From Polychytrium aggregatum (lineage: Eukaryota; Chytridiomycota; Chytridiomycetes; Polychytriales), in the NCBI RefSeq assembly GCF_025602895.1, contig NW_026516343.1, positions 38,139 through 102,138 of the forward strand: DNA of 64,000 nt, written 5' to 3'. Shown one piece after another: positions 2,977-58,180 of this stretch; positions within the stretch are counted from its first letter, which is position 1, and every line of letters starts with the position of its first letter. The position numbers and the translations under genes were made by a program. The notes under the pieces are model-generated. The model searched no databases and was not told the DNA's origin. It saw only the letters and a list, made by a program, of their open reading frames with translations.

Positions 2977-3541
2977 CCGTCAATCCAATAAAAAAACGGG
3001 CTTTGGTCGTTGAACAAATACGTTGTTGCCTCAAAACATCGCCCGCTGGCCATGACCATTCTGTGATGTGTTTCTGGATCTGAATCAATGCCGCTTTCTC
3101 GCCAGATGGCTCCCCGCAAGCGAAAGGCACCAGCCAGGCGACCAAGTGGATCCAGAGCACCCACAAGATCCTTGGTCTGCAGGAATGGATGAGCATCACA
3201 CCAAGTCCCACACCAAGTCCCACACCAAGTCCCAAGATCCCCGGGATGGCTTCCTTCCTGCAATACATTCGCCATGTGTTCGATGGAGACATGCTGGGCA
3301 AACAGCTGTACTTCAGCCTGACTCGGCGACGGCATTCAAGCGACTCGATCTCCAAGTGTGCTCACATACCGGGAAGCCAAGCGACTCGAGAAGGCCGAGT
3401 ATCTTGATATCGATACACCATGGAACTGTCCAGGTGGTCGAATGGATGCACCACACAGAGAGATTGCCAACCAGGGCGGGAAATAATCGCATGGCTTGCC
3501 CACTGGTGCCTATGACTGTCCCGTTTCTTTTGGATTGACTG
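2977..3541 (+). mobile_element. TA-flanked TIR element with Fanzor fragment (copy 1)
   Basis: The left end starts CCGTCAATCCAATAAA after TA (2975-2976). The right end finishes TCTTTTGGATTGACTG before TA (3542-3543). The two ends are imperfect inverted repeats of about 23 bases. TA on both sides and ends of the CAGTCAATCC type fit the Tc1/mariner superfamily (known for that family; assignment is inference). The inside is closely related to the element at 37976-38603, including the tract TGGCCATGACCATTCTGTGA near the left end and GACTGTCCCGTTTCTTT near the right. It encodes only a degraded C-terminal fragment of a Fanzor-like protein, so it cannot be autonomous. Confidence 0.7.
3189..3414 (+). 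pseudogene. Degraded Fanzor C-terminal fragment (copy 1)
   Basis: The frame from 3189 begins MSITPSPTPSPTPSPK and matches the copy at 38.1 kb nearly residue for residue through IPGMASFLQYIRHVFDG and KQLYFSLTRRR. A frameshift then occurs where the other copy continues into its first zinc knuckle; the homologous DNA continues in another frame to about 3410. The CxxC pairs and DRDxNA motif seen in copy 2 are not readable here. A 12-base unit (CACACCAAGTCC) is triplicated at about 3199-3234 and expands the TPSP stretch. Dead remnant. Confidence 0.65.
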
Positions 3542-6391: not shown

Positions 6392-9300
6392 TTATCGGTT
6401 CCCACGCAGGGTCGGCTGTTTCCGTGAAGACTTGGCTGAGTCGACAGATGCCCCATCCGACGGCTTGGGGAGTGGAGGTGGTGTTGGGCACCCACTCTTA
6501 TCGCCCACCTGCTCCAGTCGCGAGATTCGCTCACGTACGCTGGGCGATCGAGACATGCCGCTCATGCGCTTGAGCCGGCGCTTGTTCTGCTCCTCGTCAA
6601 TTGGCGTGCCCTCGGCACTGGAGCCGCTGTCTGGGATCCCAGTTTCTGCCTCGTCCTTGCTCATCAAACACTCAAGGGACTTTGTCGTGGCAGGGCTCGA
6701 GACCGAGGGGTTCCTCAGCCAAGTAAAGTCTCCAGAAACAGTTTCGCCAACGCCGTATCCTCCCGAGGTGCGTCGTTTCGATCGCGGTCCATACGTGCCC
6801 TTGGGATTGGGGGTGCCTGAAGTATCCGCTGCGGGCGACGGCGGAGCGTCGTTGGATCGTGCAAGTGGCTCGGGAGCCCGCCCTCCGTCCCGCCGGTGAA
6901 CGGTAGCACCTCCAATAACTGGCGATCCACATAGCTGGGTCTCTGTACTGCTTGGTGGTTGGCTGGTGGTCGAGATCTGCAGATTCTCTTTCGAGCCACT
7001 TTTGTCGCGGCTCAAAAACGGCTTGACGCTGGAAGCAATGGAGCCAAATCCCTTGGCAAGCGATTTCAAGACCGGTTTACCTGGTCGCGAGGTATTGGGC
7101 GACGGCGCCTCCCCTGAGCCTCGGATCTTGGACTCGACATGAGCAATTTTGTCTCGGATGCCAGAGTTGTCGGAGGGGCTCGAGGCAGCAGAGTCGGTCG
7201 GGCTCTCGGAACCAATGGCTGCGAGCTGTGGGTTGGGCTCAAAGGTTCGCGAAAGCGGTCGCTGTCTCACGGCCTTGCGCACGGATGCCCGGGGAGAATG
7301 GGGAGCCTGTCCTGAGTCGTTGAGGGTGGGCTGCGAGCCCATGCTAGACACAGTTGTGTCGATCGATTGCGGTGCGACCATTTTTGCCGGCCCGTCCTGA
7401 CCGTGGCTGGGCTCTGTGCTGGCTGGGCTCCATGTGCTGGAGGTGGTCGGCTCGCCTCGGAGGGACATGCTGCCCTGAGAAGAGAAGCGCTTTGTGTTTG
7501 GTTGCGGGTTGCGAGCTGCCTGTGCTGGAGATACGGGCTTGGCTTGTCGTTCCTTTGAGTCGATTTGTTCGGACACAACCGCAAGCGCACCTACGACCAA
7601 CGCCGCCTCTGTCGCTTGGGCAATGCTTGGATGCACTGGTTCTTGGACTTGAGCTGAACCCGAGGCTGGATGCTCCTGTCTTGGAAACGAAAGGATGCTG
7701 GATTCGGGAGGATGTGCAATTTGTTTCGCAGCCGCCGTGGAATTGACGGCAGATGAAACGGGTTCCAATTTTGGTGATTGATCGAGCCGAGGCTTGCTCA
7801 ATGAGCTTGGTCCAACGCTTGACTCTTTGATACTAGAGGCCCCAAAGATCTCCTCGACCTTGTTTGGATACGCTCGGTGTTCGACTGAGACCGGGTCCTG
7901 GCTTGATCCGGAGCATTCCACAGGATTTGGGCCGTATGACCTCTCTCGGAGCGCTTCGCTGGAAGACAGCGTCGCCGGGAGTACGCTTTGATATAAGACC
8001 TGGCCATCCGTTGGGAGTCCAATCCTGCGAGTGTTCTTTGAATCAATTGGCGGGTTTGACGTGTTGGGCAGCTGCCCTACAGACTCCGGGTGCATTTGCT
8101 GCAGGGGCTGAGATGCAGCTGATTCGCTCGCGCTGGTTGTCGGCTCTGCCTTTATCTGGGGCTTTGCTTCAGCGATCGGCGATGTTGGTCGAGTAGGGTC
8201 GCGCGCGACGGGAAGCACAGAGGCCGCATTGGGTGAAGACGACTTGATAGTAGCGGAGGTTGTAGGGACAGTGTGCTTGGTTGTGTCCGGATATTTGGCA
8301 CTTGCATCAGAGGAAAGACCGGGCGCTGATGCCGCGGCGGCCGTCAAAGTTGCAATTATTGGCATCTTTGAGGCGGCATTGGTCGCTGAGGTTGAGTTGA
8401 TCGCTGAGGTAGCATTGAGTGCGATATTTGCAGCAGGAGCCGGTATTTCAGAGGGCGCTGACTTGGCGGATGGTTTGCGCGGAGACTCATTATTCGCTCG
8501 GCTTACGGAAGGCAAAGACTTGGGCTCTGACTCTGGCTCTAGTCGGTATTTGTTGTGGTCTGCGCTCCACTCTTCAGACCTCGCAAGGCTATCCCGCGAT
8601 CCCTTCATCGCCGAGCGGACCGGCTGTGTATCAGGCTTTGGGAGCGATCGCAGGGTAATGTTGACGTAGTAGTCACTGATGCTCCAGGTATCGTCGTCGT
8701 CGTCTCCATCGGGCACCAGCTGATCGTCGCCGAGTTGATCCGGAGGATCCTTGAGACTCATAGCTGCGTGTCTCTCCTTGATATCTGTGGAACACTGTTC
8801 GGATTAGCGCTTGTCGATGCCATTGCTGTGGCAGGAAGGTCGCCTTTCAAGCCCGAGCCCATTGGATACTGGCTGTGTTGGTGTACATACGAGGTGTCGA
8901 CAACATCAAGGTATCGCACCCAAAGCTGCACAAGGAAGCACCCACAGCACCATCGAGATCATCTAGTTTGGGTCGTGCAAGAGTGGCCATAGACACTCTA
9001 TCGGCACCTACCCTTCAGGACATCCAGGACTTCCTTCCTCCTGGTTACGTCCTCAATGTCTCGTGCCAAGCCTTCGGGCGTGTCGCCGTCGTCATTCACA
9101 GCCTCGAGATCGATCGGACCGTCCGGGCAGCAGTAGATTGCGCCAAAGGCATCCGTGCCAGATGCACTCAGTGCCAGTCCAATGGAATGCGGGCCTCGAC
9201 ACTGGCCCAGAATGCGGACGACTTCAACGTGCCCCTCAGCACAGGCACAATGGAGGGGAGTCCAGCCCTCCTTGTCTCGAGCATTGACGAGTGCCTTTGA

Positions 9301-11111
9301 TTGCAGGAGCTGCTTGACGACGCTGCTGTGCCCGTGGCTACAAGCTTGGTGCAGCGGTGACAGCCACTGATACGGCGTGAATATGGTGTTGATGATGGGC
9401 TGCTGCGACTGCTGCGACTGCTCGACGGTATCATCGGAAGGGCTGCTCTCGCTCGAAGCCCGATCGGTGGTTTCGAGTTGGTGGAGGATCTCGGCCAGGG
9501 ACGGGATGTCCGGATCGATGCTTTTGTCGCTCTCGCCGTTCTGGCAGATCTGAAAGAGAAACGTTTTGGGATTGAAGTGAACCTTTTTTGAGGCCTTATG
9601 CTCCTGCTGCTGGTGCTGTGGTTTTGAGTCGGCAGAGTCCGTGAGCTTGGTGTGAGATCTGGACTTGCGAATTGTGCCCACGGAACGACGAATGGCTCCA
9701 ACAGTTCCCGATGCGGTCGATGCTATTGGGGTGGCCGTGGTGTCGTTGAGGCCGCGGGAGTTGGCGGAGCCGCTGCGGCACAGATTGGTCAGAGACGGTG
9801 ACTTTTCATCCGGGTAGTCCTCTGACGATGCGCATAGCTTTTCCGAAGACGACCGTTTGAGATTCTGGAGCGGACGAGATATAGAAATCACACCCTGCTG
9901 GAGACTACGATTTGGAGCAGCAAGCAGCTCGTCGACGGACTGAACAGACGACGCCCGGGGCCGAAAGTCTTCGTGGTTGGATGAGCCAGCGGGCGGACGG
10001 GGTGCTAATATCGGATAAGCACACCGTGAGCGCGGGTGCAGCCACGAGCAACGGGCAGAGAATCGCACATTGATGATTCAGTGGTTGGCGAGTTGATAGA
10101 TTGAAGGTTAACAGGTCGATTGCCAAAAGAGATAAGCATCCGGAATCACAAGCGAGCCCCATCAGACATTGGCGCCCGTGCCGAGCCCTGCACCGGCAAG
10201 TTCACCCAATAGTCCTCAAGCCTGTGGAGAAGCAGCAGCAAGCCAGACCGGCAATGCTCACCCTCGGTCACGTTGTTGAAGGCCAGGAGTGTCTCGTTGT
10301 CGTTTGTGCAGTCGACCGGCTTGTATTGGCGCTCGTTCTTCTTGTTTGGGTTTGCACCAAGTTCCAAGAGCCGAGCAACGAGCTCACACATGCCCAGGAA
10401 CGAGGCCAGATGCAGGACGGTGTTGCCGTTGCCCCAGACGCGGCCCATGAACTCATAGAGAACCTTTCGAGCCTCGATCTCCTCGGTGATCCGGACGACA
10501 AACTCGAGGATATCGGAGGCGATTTCTTCATCGCCAAGGATGCATGCGATTTGAATGGCGTTGAGATTCTCGACACTGCGCCAGAGGACAAAGCAGAGGA
10601 AGAATAAATGTACTGAATGTACGAATGGAAAGCGCAGAGAGAGGGGCCCAACCATGAAATCCGGCTGCTCCCGCGACCAAATGGGCTCAATAGGCTCAGC
10701 GGGCCGCGAAGCAACGCAAGGACATTCATCGGATGTGACCTGAGAGAGGAAAACGCGACGGAATCTGGTCTCCTTCCAGGAAGCAGGGCGACCCAGGACG
10801 AGGACAGACGATGGCTTCTGGGCCTCTGATGCGGCAAGCTACCTCTGTCCCAACAGCTCGTCGGCATCTTGCTGGACCTCGGGGTCGTGCTTGTAGAAAT
10901 GGTCCGCGTTCGGATAGCTGGTTGTGAGCATTAGTTGCAGAATCGCGGTCGAGGAGGAGGGGTTCTCGAGGATCTCGATCAGGCCGTCTCGATCGCCATC
11001 GTTGATGGCCGAAAAGATGAGTCGCTCCAGCTCGGCCGGGTCGTCCGTTGCATTGGATGACGCCGAGTTGATGGAAGCGTCGGACGACGAGTGATCCATT
11101 TGGGACGCCAT
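6392..11111 (-). CDS. Ankyrin-repeat protein phosphatase 1 regulatory subunit (MYPT-like)
   Basis: Four exons close in phase: 11111-10843, 10575-10262, 10004-9012 and 8763-6392, giving 1315 residues. Exons 1-2 (residues 1-194) form a first ankyrin block, including NAIQIACILGDEEIA and GNTVLHLASFLGMCELVARLL. Exon 3 has a Ser-rich linker, then KKVHFNPKTFLFQICQNGE. KVHF (about residues 335-338) fits the RVxF docking motif for the PP1 catalytic subunit. Two canonical ankyrin repeats follow (SPLHQACSHGHSSVVKQLL and GWTPLHCACAEGHVEVVRIL). Exon 4 encodes a long Ser/Thr/Pro-rich, probably disordered and phosphorylated tail. RVxF directly before ankyrin repeats is the arrangement of MYPT/PPP1R12 and PPP1R27 (known). 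Targeting PP1 to a substrate such as myosin is inference; the extra N-terminal ankyrin block is not in animal MYPT1. Confidence 0.75.
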
Positions 11112-11990: not shown

Positions 11991-14900
11991 TCAATGGCGG
12001 CCGGTGCGGGTGAAGATGCGAACATCGGGATACTCCTCGTCCTTGAGCTCGGTCTCCGCCGCCGTGGGCTGGTCGAGATAGGATACCCGATCCAAGTGGA
12101 AGAGACTCTTCCTGACGACCAGCTCGGGCGAGGGACACGGCGTCGGGTAGATCGAGCGAGTGTTGGTGTTGTCGACCCTGAAGGACAGGTCCATCAGCAT
12201 CCGCATGAACGCAAGCAGAGCGTGGTTATCGGGCGATGGGTTGCGCCAGATGACCGTCCTGAACTTTTCACGGGTATCCAACATGATGATCCAGCCAACG
12301 GAATTGGCGATCTCGAAGACACGCTTCTCGGTGATGACACTGTGAGTGAGTGAGTGAGTGAGTGAGTGAGTGAGTGAGTGAGTGAGTGAGTGAGTGAGTG
12401 AGTGAGTGAGTGAGTGAGTGAGTGAGGGGTGATTGCGATGGCCCACGATGTCCGCCATCAAACATGTCAATATGCAACCCACTCAATGCCAAGCACAACA
12501 TCGACTGGCACCCACACTCACACTCCACTCCACTCCACACACTCCTCACCTGTGCTCCGAGTCGCTGATGTGGAACACAAACTTGGACAGCGCCTCCTCC
12601 GAGCTGACAATCTCGGCAATCACCTTGGCAACATGGTCGACGGGATCCATGGTCCAAGTGACGGGACTGGCGTTTGCCGGGCAAATGCCGAGCTTGATGC
12701 ATCCCTCGATGTATCGCCAGATATAGTCGTCTGTGTTGCACACTGGAGGATGGAGTGAACAGGGTGAGAAACAGTGTCGGTCGATGGATGGGTGCCACTC
12801 GACAAACAAGATCATCAACCCATGGCCAAGTCGAGGGAACGAAGGAGAGAATCTCCACCACACCACCGCACCACCACACCACCACATCACACATCACCAT
12901 ACCACCGCGGCTCACCTCCGTATCCGCTGTCGCCAGCAATCATCGCTGGCCGAATGATGGTTGCAGGCACGCCCCTCGATCGTGCCTTGTTGATCAGCTG
13001 CTCAGAGACCCACTTGGTCTGCGAGTAGCCGCCCGACAGGTTCCAGTTGGAGTACATTTTCTCCTCGAGCGGCTTGTCGGAGCCCTTGGCCATGGCAATC
13101 GTCCCGATGGTCGAGATGTAGTGCACCACCTTGAGATGGTGCGTCGTGGCCAGCTGCAGCACCGTCACCGTGCTGAGGACGTTTGTTGCCTTGAGCTCGT
13201 TGTAGTTGTAGAGCCAGTGCACCTCGGCGGCGTTGTGCACAATCATGTCGGTCTCTTCGCAAATCTCCTTCCATCGCTCGTCCGAGAGTGCCCATCGCTC
13301 CTTGGAAACGTCGCCGCGCAGACCAACCCACCGGTCTCGCACGTCATACCACGGATCGTTCTTGTTCCGCGATGCAATCACCAGCCTCGAGGCGTTGGAG
13401 TAGGTGCGGAGGAAGGCCAGTTTCTCGGTCTCGGTTCGTGCCAGGCAGTAGATCTTGGCTCGAGGGAACTTGTGTGCCAGCTCAAAGATCAGGAATGCTC
13501 CGAGGAAGCTGGTTGCACCCGTCAGGACGATGCCTCGGACTTCCTTGGGATAGACAAACGGAGGGAACCCCTCAGCCGTCACACTCGCATCGTCGAGTTT
13601 GGCAGCCTCGGCAGCCAGATCGATTGTCGGCGGAATCACCAGCTTGTCGTCGAGAATGTCGACGACCAGCTGGGCGACATCCTTGGGACTCATGCTGTTC
13701 GACAGCAGGATCATTGGCGAGATCTCGACACCGTACTCCTCCCTGATGGCGAGGGCCAGGCGACTGATGCTCAGCGAGTCAAAGCCGACACCGCCAATGT
13801 AAAAGTTGCGACCGTACAGACCAGGACTGTCCAGGATCTGGCTGCTGAACTCGGAGATCTTGAAGGCAATCTTGGTCAAGAACGTTCTGGTGACCATGAG
13901 GGGTGGGTAATCGACTGCCTGGCCGTACTGCTCGATTGTCTCGGCAATACGCTTGAGCTTCTTGAGATCGACCTTGCCTGAGTCGTTGAAGGGGAGCTCG
14001 TGGAGCCTGAGGCAGTTGTGGATGGGGACCTTGGAGACGTTCAGCAGCAACAACATGTCCTCGACGACTCGGATGATATCGGCCGAGATCAAGTCGGGAT
14101 TGGATCCTTTCTGAAGGACGTAGAGCAAGATGATCTTTCTCTCGGAGGTGTGGATGAAGTAGCAGTCAGCGATGACCTGGGACAGGTGCTTGTGGACAAG
14201 TTCCTTGAGGTAGTTCAGGTCGACATAGACACCGTTGACTTTGATCTTCTGGTCGAATCTGGAGTGTGAGGTGTGAGGTGTGAGGTGTGAGGTGTGAGGT
14301 GTGAGGTGTGAGGTGTGAGGTGTGAGGTGTGAGAATGAAAGTGATCAGTATCCAGCGAGCAAATGGATCGGTGTCCCAGAGTGTGGATGGCAGTTCTCAT
14401 GGATCAAGCACACAATAGTCGCCATACTCACCTTCCAACAACACTGAACTCGTTCTCACCAACCATCTCGACCCAGTCCATGGTGCAGACTCGGGGCGAG
14501 CCATCCACGAGGAAACCAAAAGTCGACAGCTTGTCGTTGGGATCGGCGTTGACAAAGCTCGGATGGTCCTTGGCAGGATGGTCGAGATCGACGGCAAAGA
14601 CCAGGATTCCGCTCTTGGAGACATTTTGATCAACGATATTGCCCTCCTCGTCAAACAAGAGGCAGCGCACGCCAGGTTTGGCTTGCTTGTAGACCAGCTT
14701 CTCTGGGATTTCGCTTTCTGGAGGAATATGCATATATGATAGTGCTCCAATTACTCCTGTCTGGTAATGTGAAAATGGTCAGTAATCCCAGCATAGTGGC
14801 GAATCACATCGATGTTATGAACCATACCTCACTCGATCCGTAGCCCGACTGAATTTCGGCACTTGGGAATCTCTCCCTCGTCATGTGGACGACACTCATG

Positions 14901-16508: not shown

Positions 16509-17555
16509 GACGGTGTGGTATCTGGTTCCGCTGACGGGGCTGGATTTTTCGCCTGTGTCCTGACAACACCAAGACGGCGATATCGACGGATGGAGCGAGG
16601 GGAGGCGGCATCGGCGAGGGGAAGGACGAGGGGAGCGCCTTTTGTCGGTCTGGGCAGCCAGGAGATGGCGACTTGGTCTGGCTGCTTGCCAGATTGCATT
16701 GAGCGAATGCTCTTGCTTCCTCTCAGGGTGCTGAGTCTGCCAGCGTGACCGGCTCTGTGCTTGGGCGGTGGGTCTGGCTGTTGCCCCTCGATGCTGTGCT
16801 GTTGCCTCGCCCAGCAAGCTGCTTGCAAATCCACTGTTCAGCCAGCGAACAGTTCACTCGGTGGGAACACATGGGCAAGCTTGACACTCGTATGTCTTTG
16901 TTTGTGTCTGGCTGGGGGATATTCATTGTGGCCACCAACAGCACAAATCACACCACGGCACACAACGCACCACAGCACAAATCGCCCCCTCACCCAGACG
17001 AAGAATAATCCGTCCGCAGACCAGGGACAGGCTCGATTTGGTCTCTTGGACAGAGGTTGATGATGATCCTGGTATGAGGACACCAACTCTGACCAGGATG
17101 GTCGGGCCGGGCGATTTGCTCGTCTGGTTCTGGGCTTCTGTGTGCTCAATCCCCCTCCCTCGCGTCCACTGGACATTCCCAAATACAACCCAATGGCTGT
17201 CTCTTTGGACACTGCTTGTACGGCGGATGGCCGCGGAATCGACATCAGTGCGGCCCTTGCCAACATCCCTGCTGGATGTCGGCGTTCTGCAAACTCGCTC
17301 CTGCCTCGTTCCCAGGCCACATCCACGTGATATCAATCACGTGTCAATAATCACGTGTCGTCGCCTCGCTCAACAGAAAAATTTTCGCGGTCTGATCGCA
17401 TCCGCAATGACTATGAGCCCGATCGACTCTGCCAAAGTCAGGCTCTGCATCAACCGCTCGCGGCAGGCCCGATCGTCCCTCGAGAAGCTCAGTCAATCGA
17501 CAGTCTCTCCAGCCGCATTACCGCGCGATATTACGGCATCTCTGCAACTATCGCC
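16509..17555. promoter_or_regulatory. Divergent intergenic region, reductase / mL38
   Basis: The two genes start on either side and point away from each other, so both promoters must lie here. No TATA box or defined operator was recognised. A CACGTG-type stretch occurs near 17324-17358 (repeated ATCACGTGT/TCACGTG), a possible bHLH binding site by consensus only. Confidence 0.4.
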
Positions 17556-20368
17556 ATGTCTCTGCTGAGATTGAAGCCTCACGCCGCTCTCAAGGTACGA
17601 CTGCGAGTCCAAGCTCAGTGCCGATATGCAGCAGGTGGCCGGCCTCGAGGAACGGGAGGGTCTTCAAAGGGGATTTCCCAGTGAACCAGGCCACTCAAGC
17701 TACGGCGATAGATTATTTGGTATCGCCGCTCAGCTCAGCGCTTGTTTGCCCACCCACCAAGTCGATCGGATCTAGACTCAGCATCGGCTTCGACTTTGGA
17801 TCGCGGTGGCATTGGCGATTGGGAAAATGAGCCATATACCTCGGTTTGACGCCGGTCCACTGATCTTTTGCTGCATCCGACATCTGTATTTCATTCGCTC
17901 CCTTGTGCAGCGATCGGTGGCCACCATTGCGTCGCGCCAGCCCACCAAGATTGCCGCATCAGCGGCCGAGCAGTTCCAAACACCACCTGTTGGCGTGAAT
18001 GCCGCCTATGACCAGGCCGTCAAGGTTTTGGAGAAGCACAGAGAGGTGCTCAAAGCACAGATCGAGGATCTCAAGGTGAAGCAGGGATCTAGCGATGCCA
18101 AAGCCACGGCCCACCTCGACAAGCTCATTGTGTCCAAGGAGACCGAGCTCGAGTACACTTTTCCCGAGAACCACTGGCAGTTCTACAACAACCGCTGTAA
18201 GCACGCATGCCACATCCCCATACTCGTTTCGAATATGGCTGGTGCATAGGCTATAAGCCGGAAGTCAGCTGTCGCACCGCCATTCCGTTCGTGCTGGTCA
18301 CGCATGCGGCCGTTGTCTTGGCCTTGGAGGGCGATGTGCCAAGCACCCTGCGTATTTCGCCATATATGGGCCGTTTCACGGATCCATGCCAGCACACTCA
18401 CATATCGACCAACAACTGTGAACACCGACGCAGACGACATCAACAAGGACATCTTCCGATCGCTCCATGCCAAGCGGTACAAGTCCTATGTTATCCCGCG
18501 GCTGCTCCGACAGTCCGAAGCCCTCGGCATCGTCGGTGACGCCCTGGTGGCCCCGCTCAGCCCCCCGATCTATCTGGAGGTCAACTTTCCCAGCACCAAG
18601 TGGTTCGGCGCCTACGGACACCCGATTCCTCCCAACTGGGCCTTGTACTCGCCCGAGGTCACAATCACCGTGCCCGACGACTCCGAGGGCTTCTACACTC
18701 TTATGATGGTGGATCTGGGTAGGCTTCGTGTAGATACGCATATAGATCCCCGCATCATGAATCTGCAAAGTGGCGGTTCGGTCGACAGTGTGGCTGGACG
18801 TCCTGCCTCGTGTTCTGATAGCGTGTACTGATCGTCTCCATTTCTGCGGCTGTGTGATCTCCTCAGATCGAGTCAACGTTGAGTCAGGAACGTTTGAAGA
18901 GTGGTGCCACTGGCTCGTGTGAGTACCGCCATAGCGATCTGTCGTGAAATGTCTCGGTGTGGGACTCAGCGTGGAGTGGTGCGCATCCTTGCTCCCGCTT
19001 CATGCGCTTGATCGACTTGCGTCTGCACGCGAGCACAGCTGAACGGCAGATCGTGCTCTAATCAAATTTATCCATTCCCGCATCGATGGCCCTCCCGATG
19101 ACAGCACCGACATTCCTGTCAAGTCTCGGCTGGTGATTCCTGGTGGATCATCGCCTTTCCTTGGCCCTCCCACCGACGATACTCGTGTTGCTATTGAATC
19201 GGCAAAGAACAACATGGCCACTCATCCCACTGCGCCCGAGACTCCCGTCACGATTCCCGGAAATGTCATCTTTGACTACGTGCCCCTGCACCCCCCTCAC
19301 CAGAACCCCGCACGCCACAGCCGGTACTTCATCGGTGCCTACCGACAGCCGCAAGGCCAGGGCCAGATCGACGTTGCAGCCCTCAAAAAGTCAATCCAGG
19401 AGAAGATTGCATCCGCGGATGCGACCGAGACTCGGGGCACTTTTGAGCAAATGTACATTGGCGAAGCAGAGAAAAAGATCCAAACCCAGGAGCGGTAAGA
19501 CTGGTTCATAGTGGCGGCGGAGTGATATGCATCCACGACCGCGACAGCGTATTTGCAAACTTGCTGACCGCTCGCGTTTCCTCCACTACGACAGTGCCGC
19601 CGTTACTCCGTCGTGGGGCTTTGCCAAGACCCATGGCCTGGAGCTCCAGGGCTACGGATTCTTCACCTCCATGTGGAACCTGTACACACCTGACATTTTC
19701 ACCCGACTTGGTATGTCGTACTGTTCTGCTTGGCGCGCGGCTCCGTTGCTCCGGATGCCCATCCCTTTGGACGTTGTGACTTTGAATGTTGTAGAGATAG
19801 ATGCCTCAGAAACCCCAAGCCCCTGCGACTCTATAGAATCAGTTGCGCTCATCGGGCTGGATATTCATGTCTCTGACGCCTGCTCGGCTGCTTCACCGCA
19901 TTCCCAACAGGCATCCACGAGCCTGTCTACGGCGAGCTGCCCAAGAACCCGAAGCAGTTCATCAAGCAGGTCCAGACGGCCTCCGAGATGTTTGCCAAGC
20001 TGCCCGGTCCGTTGACTACTCTGGAGGTCTCTGAGCTCCAGCACATCAACAAGGGCACCAAGGCCACGCCGCACAAGCCTCGCGTGACTATGAAGACCCT
20101 CGAGGTCGAGAAGCTGAAGCAGGACGATCAGGCACAGCTCCGCGCCAGGGCGCAAAAGATTGCTGAGAAGGAGAAGAGCTCGGTTGACGACGTCCTCAAG
20201 ACTATTGCTGCCAAGGAGGCCGAGTGGCAGCAATCTGCGAAGCTGCCAAGACTGACAACCATTGGTGCCGTCTCTGTTGTGAAAAACAAAGTTAACGATG
20301 TCGCCACTGCCGATGGCGAAAAGACGGCCCAGGCCAAGACCCGTCGCTACAAGTATTTGAACGTCTAA
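17556..20368 (+). CDS. Mitochondrial large-subunit ribosomal protein mL38 (PEBP domain)
   Basis: Seven exons close in phase to 541 residues: 17556-17594, 17911-18196, 18434-18718, 18867-18918, 19105-19494, 19595-19710 and 19911-20368. The short basic first exon and Arg/Ser-rich start suit a mitochondrial presequence. The centre is a PEBP-fold domain (ALYSPEVTI, FYTLMMVDLD, EEWCHWLVTDIPV, VFDYVPLHPPHQNPARHSRY), as in yeast MRPL35/human MRPL38. The C-terminal part has WGFAKTHGLELQGYGFF and a Lys-rich helical tail. In the intron before exon 5 a CTCTAAT branch-like site precedes the acceptor, which restores the expected WLVTDIP. It is a structural component of the mitoribosome central protuberance (family knowledge). 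Confidence 0.88.
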
Positions 20369-26735: not shown

Positions 26736-26950
26736 GGAAGCAAGTGACTCCAGACTCATGGCCCATGACCCTGTTTGTGGAGCTCTGCCTTGGCCATGCC
26801 CAGGGCCAACACTGGAGGCGGCGGGCTCAGCGGGGTACCCTCGTCTTCGATAGAAGCGATATCGACAGAAACCTGTGGCCATCTGTCTCTCGAGAGAGGG
26901 CAATTGCGCGATTTCGGACCAGGTATATTGTCGAGGATGGTGTGCTTGAT
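26736..26950. other. 3' region of hydrolase gene
   Basis: Follows the hydrolase stop codon. No gene, RNA or repeat recognised before the short TIR element. Confidence 0.5.
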
Positions 26951-27213
26951 GCTTCCAGCGTTTCCAAAATGAAATGGGACACCTCGTTGAGCCATGACAG
27001 GGGTTTTTTCTAGAACCTGAATACACCCACCCTCTCATTGCATTCATGGCCAAGCACAGCACCCTCGATTTCCGCATCGCTGCACTGCGACCGGTGGTCT
27101 TCACTCGGAGGCTGCCAAAGTGATCTGTTATATTTCCTATGGCTTTGCTTGACGCATGCCATCGCATACTACGCTGACAAATGGGTTGTGGGCAGGTGTC
27201 CCATTTCCCCCTG
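26951..27213. mobile_element. Short TIR element (MITE-like), copy 1
   Basis: Begins with CAGCGTTTCCAAAATG then GAAATGGGACACC (26971-26983), and ends with the inverted match GGTGTCCCATTTCCCCC (27195-27211). It is homologous in inverted orientation to 57920-58180; the first 160 bases are nearly identical and the rest is patchy. It contains a conserved mini-frame starting MAKHSTLDFRIAALRPVVF (from 27046). Its right half shares short blocks (CTCGGAGG, GTGATCTG, TTGACGCA) with the DNA following the Fanzor relic at 6.1-6.2 kb. I infer an internally deleted, non-autonomous derivative of the local Fanzor-bearing transposon family. No clean target duplication was found. Confidence 0.6.
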
Positions 27214-37741: not shown

Positions 37742-37973
37742 TCAGCCTGGCCTCTTGTGCCACCGCCTTCTTCAATCCCTGTCTTGGGGTCCAGCATTCA
37801 TTGAATGCCTCTCTGTCGGTTTCCTACAACAATCATCTGCCTCAAACAACGACGGAGAGATCCCAAGCACTGTGGCGAGCTCACCCTTATATTTCATCCA
37901 GAGAAAGCGGGTGCGGGTGCGGGTGCGGGTGCGGGAGCGGGGGGGTGGCGGAAGAGCAACGGCCGTGCCCGCT
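37742..37973. other. Intergenic with (GGGTGC)n repeat
   Basis: Downstream of the coiled-coil gene; contains a hexamer repeat (GGGTGC, about five copies, 37907-37940) about 35 bases before the transposon end. Confidence 0.6.
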
Positions 37974-37975
37974 TA

Positions 37976-38603
37976 CAGTCAATCCAATAAAAATGGGACA
38001 CCCGTGATTTTGACGATTGATCAACTATTTTGCTACCCAATACAATCGCGCGCTGGCCATGACCATTCTGTGATTTGAATCAAGGACGCCATTGTGGGAA
38101 TCGCTTCCAGCTCAAGACGCGCTGGATGAGCACCACACCAAGTCCCAAGATCCCTGGGTTGGCTTCATTCCTGCAATACATTCGCCATGTGTTCGATGGA
38201 GACATGTTGGAGAAACAGCTGTACTTCAGCCTGACCCAGCGACGGCGGTTCAAGCGACTCGATCTCCAGGTGTGCTCACATTGTCGGGAAGCCAAGCGAC
38301 TCGAGAAGGTCGAGCATCTTGATATCGAGAAACCACACTTTGTCCGGAGCTGTGCAAGCTGCCATACGCTGTGGGATCGAGACATCAATGCCTTACGGAA
38401 CATGATCTCGGTATGCCAGTCGATCATCGCCACAGGAGATCGGCCATGTGTATTCAAGACTGTGCTTCCCGAACCAACCAAAACCACTCGATTGCCAACG
38501 AAGACAGGAGTGCAATGCCATGGCCTACCCGCTGGGCCTACAAGTCAGTCAGCGGGCTTCAGAAGCCAGAAAGTGACTGTCCCGTTTCTTTCTGGACCGA
38601 CCG
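37976..38603 (+). mobile_element. TA-flanked TIR element with Fanzor 3' fragment (copy 2)
   Basis: The left end is CAGTCAATCCAATAAAAATG preceded by TA (37974-37975). The right end is the imperfect inverse, CATTT-like inner part then CTGGACCGACCG, followed by TA (38604-38605). Length is 628 bases. TA at both borders and CAGT ends fit Tc1/mariner-type transposition. The inner left end continues GGGACACC, also the core of the terminal repeats of the short elements at 27.0 and 57.9 kb, tying the two groups together. It encodes the readable C terminus of a Fanzor-like protein. Confidence 0.72.
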
Positions 38604-38614
38604 TATGTTTCTGA
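38129..38614 (+). pseudogene. Fanzor (eukaryotic TnpB-like nuclease) C-terminal fragment
   Basis: An open frame (upstream Met at 38075) carries IPGLASFLQYIRHVFDG, then a zinc-finger core CSHC and CASC separated by 22 residues, immediately followed by WDRDINALRNMISV. Two CxxC pairs followed by DRDxNAxxN is the hallmark of the C-terminal zinc finger plus RuvC-III motif of TnpB and Fanzor nucleases (family knowledge). The acidic RuvC-III residue is present. RuvC-I, RuvC-II and the wedge/REC parts are absent; only about 180 residues remain, so the protein cannot be an active RNA-guided nuclease. Reading frame past the RuvC-III motif is open into the right end of the element. Confidence 0.72.
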
Positions 38615-39245
38615 TAACAAACGGGTGTCCCCTCTCCTTTCCCTGACAACAAAAAATGCAACACCAATAAAAAAAAAAAGAGAGTGTGCGAGGGGACCAC
38701 AAAAAGAAAGTGAATTGTACCGGAGCAAGAATAAAAGAAAAGGACACGTCCGAATGCACACGATAGATTCCTTCCCGATCCGTTGGCGATGGTTCTCTCA
38801 CCAAGATCCCTCCAATGTTGGACGACTCCCCTGAGGCCCTCAACGCTCGAGGGACTCGCGGTGTCTGCTGATGGGGATTATGTTTTGTTGAGGCTGGCAT
38901 GCCACAAACTTCATCGTGTACATATAGACAGAAAAAAAGGAGGAAGGGAACGAACAGCACAGCAGCGGCGGAGAGGCGAGGGAGGGCAAGTGCCGGGGCC
39001 ATGTACATTCGGTAGTTGGCCATAGTGGCGGTGGTGGTGGTGGTGGTTGGGGTGGAGACGATGCCTGGGCCAGCCTCAGCATCCACAACCATAAAGACGA
39101 CTCTGACGAGTCGTTCGAGAGAAGCAGGAGGAGAATCCAAGGAGTCTGCATACACGACAGGACAGACACTCATCGCAACTTTATGATATATGCATTTTGA
39201 GGGGAGAGGAGAGAAACGAAAGGACGGAAATGCAAACGGACGAAC

Positions 39246-57919: not shown

Positions 57920-58180
57920 TCAGGGGGGAAATGGGACACCACAGCCGCTTCCGTGAACATAAAGTCTGTGATGAGCTTGCGTCCAACTGAGCCACATGCA
58001 ATTCAGCAGATCACCTCCGAGCGAAGACCACCGGCCGCAGTGCAGCGATGCGGAAATCGAGGGTGCTGTGTTTGGCCATGATTGCAATGAGTGGGTGGGT
58101 GTATTCAGGTTCCAGAAAAACCCACTGTCATGGCTCAAAATGGGGGTGTCCCATTTCACTTTGGAAACGCTGGAAGCATC
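57920..58180. mobile_element. Short TIR element (MITE-like), copy 2
   Basis: The left end is CAGGGGGGAAATGGGACACC (57923-57942) and the right end is the inverse, GGTGTCCCATTTCACTTTGG then AAACGCTG (from about 58146). It is homologous, in inverted orientation, to 26951-27213. On the minus strand it carries the same mini-frame MAKHSTLDFRIAALRPVVF, which stops after ARR. Its left half matches the 3' flank and last codons of the Fanzor relic at 6.1 kb (SSLGGDLLNC versus RSLLGGAEVIC). Interpreted as an internally deleted transposon derivative; no coding capacity for a nuclease or transposase. Confidence 0.6.

Follow-up and report, generated by a model that had tools for sequence, protein, structure and literature searches.

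Two short elements lie on the same strand, about 35 kb apart, in the 64,000-nucleotide stretch of DNA analyzed here (the window). Copy A (37976..38603, forward strand, 628 bp, with ends common to both copies) is a non-autonomous, TA-flanked element with terminal inverted repeats (TIRs) that carries a C-terminal fragment of TnpB/Fanzor type, and copy B (2977..3541, forward strand, 565 bp), detected by comparing the window with itself, is a second TA-flanked element that is frameshifted and has different internal gaps. The target-site copies of TA around A occupy 37974..37975 on the left and 38604..38605 on the right. Its left TIR (CAGTCAATCCAATAAAAATGGGACA, 37976..38000, forward strand) matches the reversed right end of B at 22 of 25 bases, and its right TIR (38574..38603, reverse strand) was placed by alignment with the right end of B. 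Within A, an open frame of 183 codons (38063..38611, forward strand), best seen as a pseudogene fragment, extends 8 bp beyond the right end and encodes a C4 zinc finger, CSHC-x22-CASC (38273..38362, forward strand; PF07282), and a RuvC-III motif, WDRDINALRNM (38372..38404, forward strand), recognized by alignment with the RuvC-III of LaTranC and Cas12m. A preliminary description of this locus had the finger followed directly by WDRDINALRNM; both motifs are present in that order, but three residues (HTL) separate them. The right-end block of A (38490..38603, forward strand), a candidate reRNA/omega RNA region, is collinear with that of B (3462..3541, forward strand) and is 33 bp longer (38541-38573). 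Copy B also contains a stretch (3220..3420, forward strand) that is 91% identical to the 203 bp of A at 38133-38335, as well as an open frame of 83 codons (3084..3332, forward strand) that consists partly of sequence absent from A.

The length of the 183-codon frame has little meaning, as open reading frames (ORFs) of at least 183 codons number 142 in ten Markov-1 random windows versus 92 in this window, and it is the profile match that counts as evidence. The frame matches PF07282 (Pfam) with an E-value of 2.7e-4 and 21.5 bits, under the gathering score of 26.3, and this E-value multiplied by the 261 ORFs of at least 110 aa comes to ~0.07. NCBIfam returned IS200_TnpB (0.0049) and IS607_TnpB (0.11) plus one chance family, and PHROG returned two transposase families (0.0038 and 0.014) and one unknown family (0.0049). 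Among nine listed PDB matches, those to Cas12m (0.086) and LaTranC (0.38 and 0.63) are weak and the rest are unrelated; both LaTranC and Cas12m align with A across the finger and RuvC-III, with 0/2000 shuffles as good in each case. Local profiles were then built from the zinc-finger stretches of solved chains and run against the 1,309 six-frame ORFs of the window, with ten Markov-1 random windows (15,339 ORFs) as the control. With five chains (LaTranC, L79, Cas12m, PpFz1, and SpuFz1), the A frame ranked first of 1,309 with 30.8 bits and an E-value of 1.5e-8, a result mildly biased in favor of A by the inclusion of two chains that are its own best PDB matches, while the second window ORF and the best random ORF each reached 10.2 bits. 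A also came first when PpFz1 was left out, scoring 33.0 bits with the four remaining chains against 10.2 for the best random ORF, and when the profile was built from three chains, LaTranC, L79, and Cas12m, scoring 22.7 bits (E 5.7e-6) against 12.4. From sequence comparison, we regard the identity of the frame as a zinc finger and RuvC-III of the TnpB/Fanzor superfamily as established. A single-sequence AlphaFold model of 38129-38500 had a mean pLDDT of 41 and was set aside.

The inverted ends of A are imperfect. The terminal 10-mers, CAGTCAATCC on the left and CGGTCGGTCC on the right (reverse complement), match at 7 of 10 positions, and a better match between left and right sits further inward (TCCA-ATAAAAATGGGACA and TCCAGAAAGAAACGGGACA). 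By themselves these ends are unconvincing and within chance, because 171 of the 15,060 TA-bounded pairs lying 400-900 bp apart within the window, A included, score at least as high; the left and right ends of B make a better pair, with a score reached by 2 of the 15,060, B included. That the ends are true shared TIRs is instead clear from the repetition of both in copy B and from a TIR scan of every TA site on both strands of the window, in which the left end of A and the right end of B served as queries. The self-matches scored 50 and 58, each query retrieved the other (35), and the right end of A and the left end of B were found at 39 and 32, respectively, whereas the next-best site, setting aside register-shifted matches to those ends, scored 20. 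The shared TIR consensus, judged by eye, is approximately CAGTCAATCCAAWARAAACGGGACA, and TA lies outside all four ends of the two copies. The boundaries and TA-flanked inverted ends that the preliminary description gave for 37976-38603 are thus confirmed via copy B, and that description had beforehand made its claim depend on the ends recurring in other copies; one further copy, B, has them. Its label of Tc1/mariner-like rests on the duplicated TA together with ends of CAG type, since no transposase gene was seen in six-frame translations of A and B. A perfect inner repeat, GGGACACCCGT/ACGGGTGTCCC (37995-38005 and 38621-38631), was rejected as the true TIR because its right arm falls outside the TA and the repeat is absent from copy B. 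In both copies, TTA stands immediately before the left end (37973-37975 and 2974-2976), one base beyond the TA duplication. This is the position that a Fanzor target motif (TAM) would occupy, although the agreement of two copies may be fortuitous.

Several other features of the window were recorded. A second MITE-like pair, whose members are inverted to each other (26948-27211, forward strand, and 57924-58180, reverse strand) and share 80.8% identity over 271 columns, carries AAATGGGACACC close to one end and GGTGTCCCATTT close to the opposite one, and this 12-mer also occurs at 37991-38002, within the left TIR region of copy A. NCBIfam gave no match in the two ORFs overlapping this pair. The sequences CAGTCAAT at 17490 and GGACACCC at 18616, considered as a further element, were read by eye and no element was found. 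An ORF at 12890-14344 (reverse strand) encodes phosphopantetheine-binding and thioester-reductase domains and partially matches the aminoadipate-semialdehyde dehydrogenase model TIGR03443, below the cut-off; it could belong to the lysine pathway of a fungus or be NRPS-like, and together with the general character of the window it would fit, without proving, a eukaryotic and probably fungal host. Another ORF at 9001-10077 (reverse strand) encodes ankyrin repeats (Pfam PF00023, E 6.6e-16). A tRNA scan of the window with bacterial-code settings found none.

Copies A and B share both ends and differ between them. Their left ends are identical at 76 of 101 columns and their right ends at 22 of 23, and the inner right block is collinear between A 38490-38540 and B 3462-3512 (38/52 columns). 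As controls, 0/2000 random 100-mers matched the left block of B as well as A does, and 0/5000 random 51-mers matched its inner right block as well, the numbers scored being slightly lower than 2000 and 5000 as draws overlapping the elements were skipped without replacement. The MAFFT alignment of the two copies misplaces the right end. Opposite the 154 bp of A at 38336-38489 there are only 41 bp of B, and opposite the 33 bp at 38541-38573 there is nothing, while the 115 bp of B at 3071-3185 stand opposite 45 bp of A, and at 3198-3233 B has three tandem ACACCAAGTCCC units (two extra 12-bp units, reading as TPSP repeats in one frame) where A has one. Since either copy thus contains segments that the other lacks, their common ancestor was probably longer than both; the simplest reading of the differences would be that the two copies shed different portions of a longer parent, with the gaps representing deletions rather than insertions. 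In the stretch at 3220-3420 of B, two 1-bp gaps shift the coding frame and disrupt the first CxxC, and B has no match to the RuvC-III part. By alignment, what B retains is no more than a frameshifted remnant of the finger's first half together with a right end that is shorter, and A still has the zinc finger, RuvC-III, and the right end in full. Substitutions between the copies fall in codon phases 0, 1, and 2 at 3, 5, and 8 of 67 sites each, a slight third-position excess on numbers too few to count as conservation of the coding frame. The B frame also matched PkwA with an E-value of 1.3e-5, but this value is a sum over seven short repeats of which none passes by itself, and the match was dismissed as a short AFSPDG motif.

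Beyond the finger and RuvC-III, the parts expected of a nuclease are missing from A. The motif of Bao and Jurka, given in PMC3627910 as D-X(125,275)-[TS][TS]XX-C4-X(5,50)-RD, is found in A from the finger onward only: [TS][TS]xx is absent directly before the finger, where DLQV precedes CSHC, as a deletion would leave, and for this reason A is claimed as a remnant and not as a working member. RuvC-I is absent from the A frame, in which only 70 codons lie between the upstream stop and the finger, and the RuvC-II glutamate is absent from it as well. According to PMC10711439, Fanzors have DPG in RuvC-I and, six residues ahead of the finger, a glutamate; there is no DPG in the A frame and no glutamate in the eight residues preceding its finger (FKRLDLQV). 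This fingerprint region looks to have been deleted from A, and, to judge from their reading frames, neither A nor B can encode a working nuclease.

The preliminary description had called the fragment a Fanzor C terminus. Membership in the TnpB/Fanzor superfamily stands, on the five-chain profile, but assignment to Fanzor1 in particular does not follow from the two-chain profile: with the Fanzor1-only profile (PpFz1 and SpuFz1), in which the PpFz1 chain has no RuvC-III and both chains have a longer finger loop, the A frame was not among the best four ORFs listed. The 22 residues between the cysteine pairs of A are also outside the range of 12-18 in the NAR 2023 pattern. The finger of A compares with that of SpuFz1 at 1/2000 shuffles as good, and the stretch before it (TPSPKIPGLASFLQYIRHVF) resembles the SpuFz1 sequence PSHKTMNLMDFTRYLL, which lies between RuvC-I and RuvC-II. 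For this pre-finger stretch, the shuffles as good numbered 160/5000 for A and 516/5000 for B against SpuFz1, and 2124/5000 and 678/5000 against PpFz1; comparisons with shorter Fanzor1 pieces failed or were marginal (1686, 138, and 1996 of 2000 shuffles for A; 1244, 43, and 444 for B), and a two-chain Fanzor1 profile of the region retrieved neither copy at E-values up to 10. The likeness to SpuFz1 before the finger is only a hint, and it is the TA-TIR context that suggests a Fanzor1 identity for the parent of A.

An alternative origin is that the element picked up its finger and RuvC-III from a prokaryotic TnpB or an IS607-type Fanzor2 and not from Fanzor1. The TnpB-type solved chains that match best by sequence are Cas12m (E 0.086) and LaTranC (0.38), and the LaTranC/L79/Cas12m profile finds A (22.7 bits, E 5.7e-6) where the Fanzor1 pair does not place it among its best four, but the Fanzor1 comparison is based on two divergent chains only. 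A resembles the TnpB of IS200/IS605 and IS607 in having the zinc finger and the RuvC-III motif, yet the element that hosts it is TA-flanked and TIR-bounded. Those insertion sequences are prokaryotic and use HUH or serine transposases, without TA-flanked TIRs. Fanzor2 genes inside cut-and-paste transposons have already been described; on the other side, no relative was confirmed in genome_contigs (47 pattern matches with A, 0 confirmed), and the matches from phages and plasmids are weak, comprising 4 phage records at E-values of 5 to 10, of which two carry a transposase annotation, and 41 plasmid records at E-values up to 10, of which the 15 listed all have an E-value of 2 and are annotated as ATPase, integrase, or hypothetical protein. 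In viral_contigs, A alone gave 6 pattern matches and the SpuFz1/PpFz1 alignment gave 600, with 0 confirmed in either case. None of these collections is known to hold more than a few eukaryotic nuclear sequences. Taken together, we consider a TnpB or Fanzor2 origin unlikely.

Fanzor1 guide RNA comes from the right end of the element (PMC10432273), and it can include the TIR and the target-site duplication (TSD) and extend ~15 nt into the flank (PMC10711439). A candidate guide RNA at the right end of A is possible, with folding lending it no clear support. A and perhaps B may have been retained in the way proposed for the ghost loci of Spizellomyces, because the right end still gives rise to an RNA able to guide a Fanzor produced elsewhere. 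Both copies do preserve the right-end block, but transposition alone already requires retained ends. Their sizes of 628 and 565 bp resemble the ~550-nt ghosts with 30-nt inverted repeats (PMC10432273), and it also speaks for this reading that known Fanzor1 RNAs take in the TIR, the TSD, and the ~15 nt beyond (PMC10711439). The stretch at 38406-38603 folds with a z of -2.66 (2/200 shuffles as good), but ten other folded stretches gave z values between -1.21 and +0.48 (-1.21, -0.78, -0.17, -0.64, -0.07, +0.48, -0.17, -0.13, -0.45, and +0.14), the strongest right-end hairpin of A (CCAGAAAG/CUUUCUGG) uses a segment absent from B, and Rfam gave no match at gathering score within the window. Such retention is, in our analysis, decidedly unlikely. 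The corresponding prediction, in which the two copies act as donors of guide RNA, having spread through this genome as short TIR elements while supplying right-end RNAs to a Fanzor made elsewhere, we would call improbable. Were it true, the right-end RNA of each copy would be differently guided, as the guide is the flank, and the host would be one other than Spizellomyces, in which ghost loci have been described.

It is highly improbable that A is simply a MITE whose interior happens to read as a C4 finger followed by DRDINA, as, even with long open frames common in the window and the PF07282 match under its gathering score, the finger and RuvC-III stand in the correct order, the five-chain and three-chain profiles give 30.8 and 22.7 bits against at most 10.2 and 12.4 in 15,339 random ORFs, and elements of the same kind are known to carry a TnpB/Fanzor gene (PMC3627910).

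We therefore favor, with a probability of roughly 0.8, the reading that A and B arose by internal deletion from a longer TA-inserting TIR transposon that carried a TnpB/Fanzor-type gene, and that they survive as its non-autonomous remnants in a eukaryotic, probably fungal, genome. The parent would have had TIRs of ~25-30 bp with the TnpB/Fanzor-type gene between them and would have inserted at TA, as Tc1/mariner elements do. The short copies would have been mobilized in trans, a transposase made elsewhere in the genome excising them by their TIRs and joining them at TA. This model of transposition draws on the biology of non-autonomous Tc1/mariner elements. After mobilization, both copies would have decayed, with the nuclease remnant a passenger without further function.

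Among known systems, A and B come closest to the Fanzor1 elements SPu-1 of Spizellomyces, including partial and ghost copies of these. PMC3627910 describes SPu-1 of Spizellomyces punctatus as a Fanzor1 element that spans ~2.1 kb, encodes a protein of 633 aa, and is bounded by TIRs of 33 bp; A and B likewise are TIR-bounded DNA elements with putative TA target-site duplications, and the single ORF of SPu-1 is a TnpB-like gene. Like SPu-1, they have no transposase between the inverted repeats (for SPu-1, PMC10432273). Unlike SPu-1 with its ~2.1 kb and full protein, A and B span 565-628 bp and carry a fragment. In one Spizellomyces genome, 134 ghost Spu-1 loci and, among 42 Fz loci, partial Fz genes are recorded in PMC10432273, and A and B resemble these partial and ghost loci as short derivatives within inverted repeats that keep the right end. 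The ghost loci contain no Fz ORF, and the RNA scaffolds from them were functional with SpuFz1 (PMC10432273), whereas in A part of the ORF remains and the RNA is only a candidate. There is a further likeness to PUl-4, PGv-1, and other mariner elements, in which a Fanzor1 gene lies between mariner-type TIRs with TA duplications, but these carry the Fanzor1 gene and some also a transposase, while A and B carry fragments; the figure legend on these elements also marks degenerated coding sequences (all PMC3627910).

No published description of the A/B element was noticed among the papers listed in literature searches, a result of little weight. Scientifically, A and B are ordinary, since TA-flanked TIR elements with Fanzor genes were published in 2013 and short derivatives of such elements in 2023. 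With them there is probably one more eukaryotic genome where TA-inserting TIR transposons have carried TnpB/Fanzor genes, and they provide a decayed example of the published pattern, in which short derivatives of such transposons remain. Should the host have full-length copies, as the preliminary description predicts, A and B would help to define the ends of the family and to test if the right-end RNA is retained in deletion derivatives.
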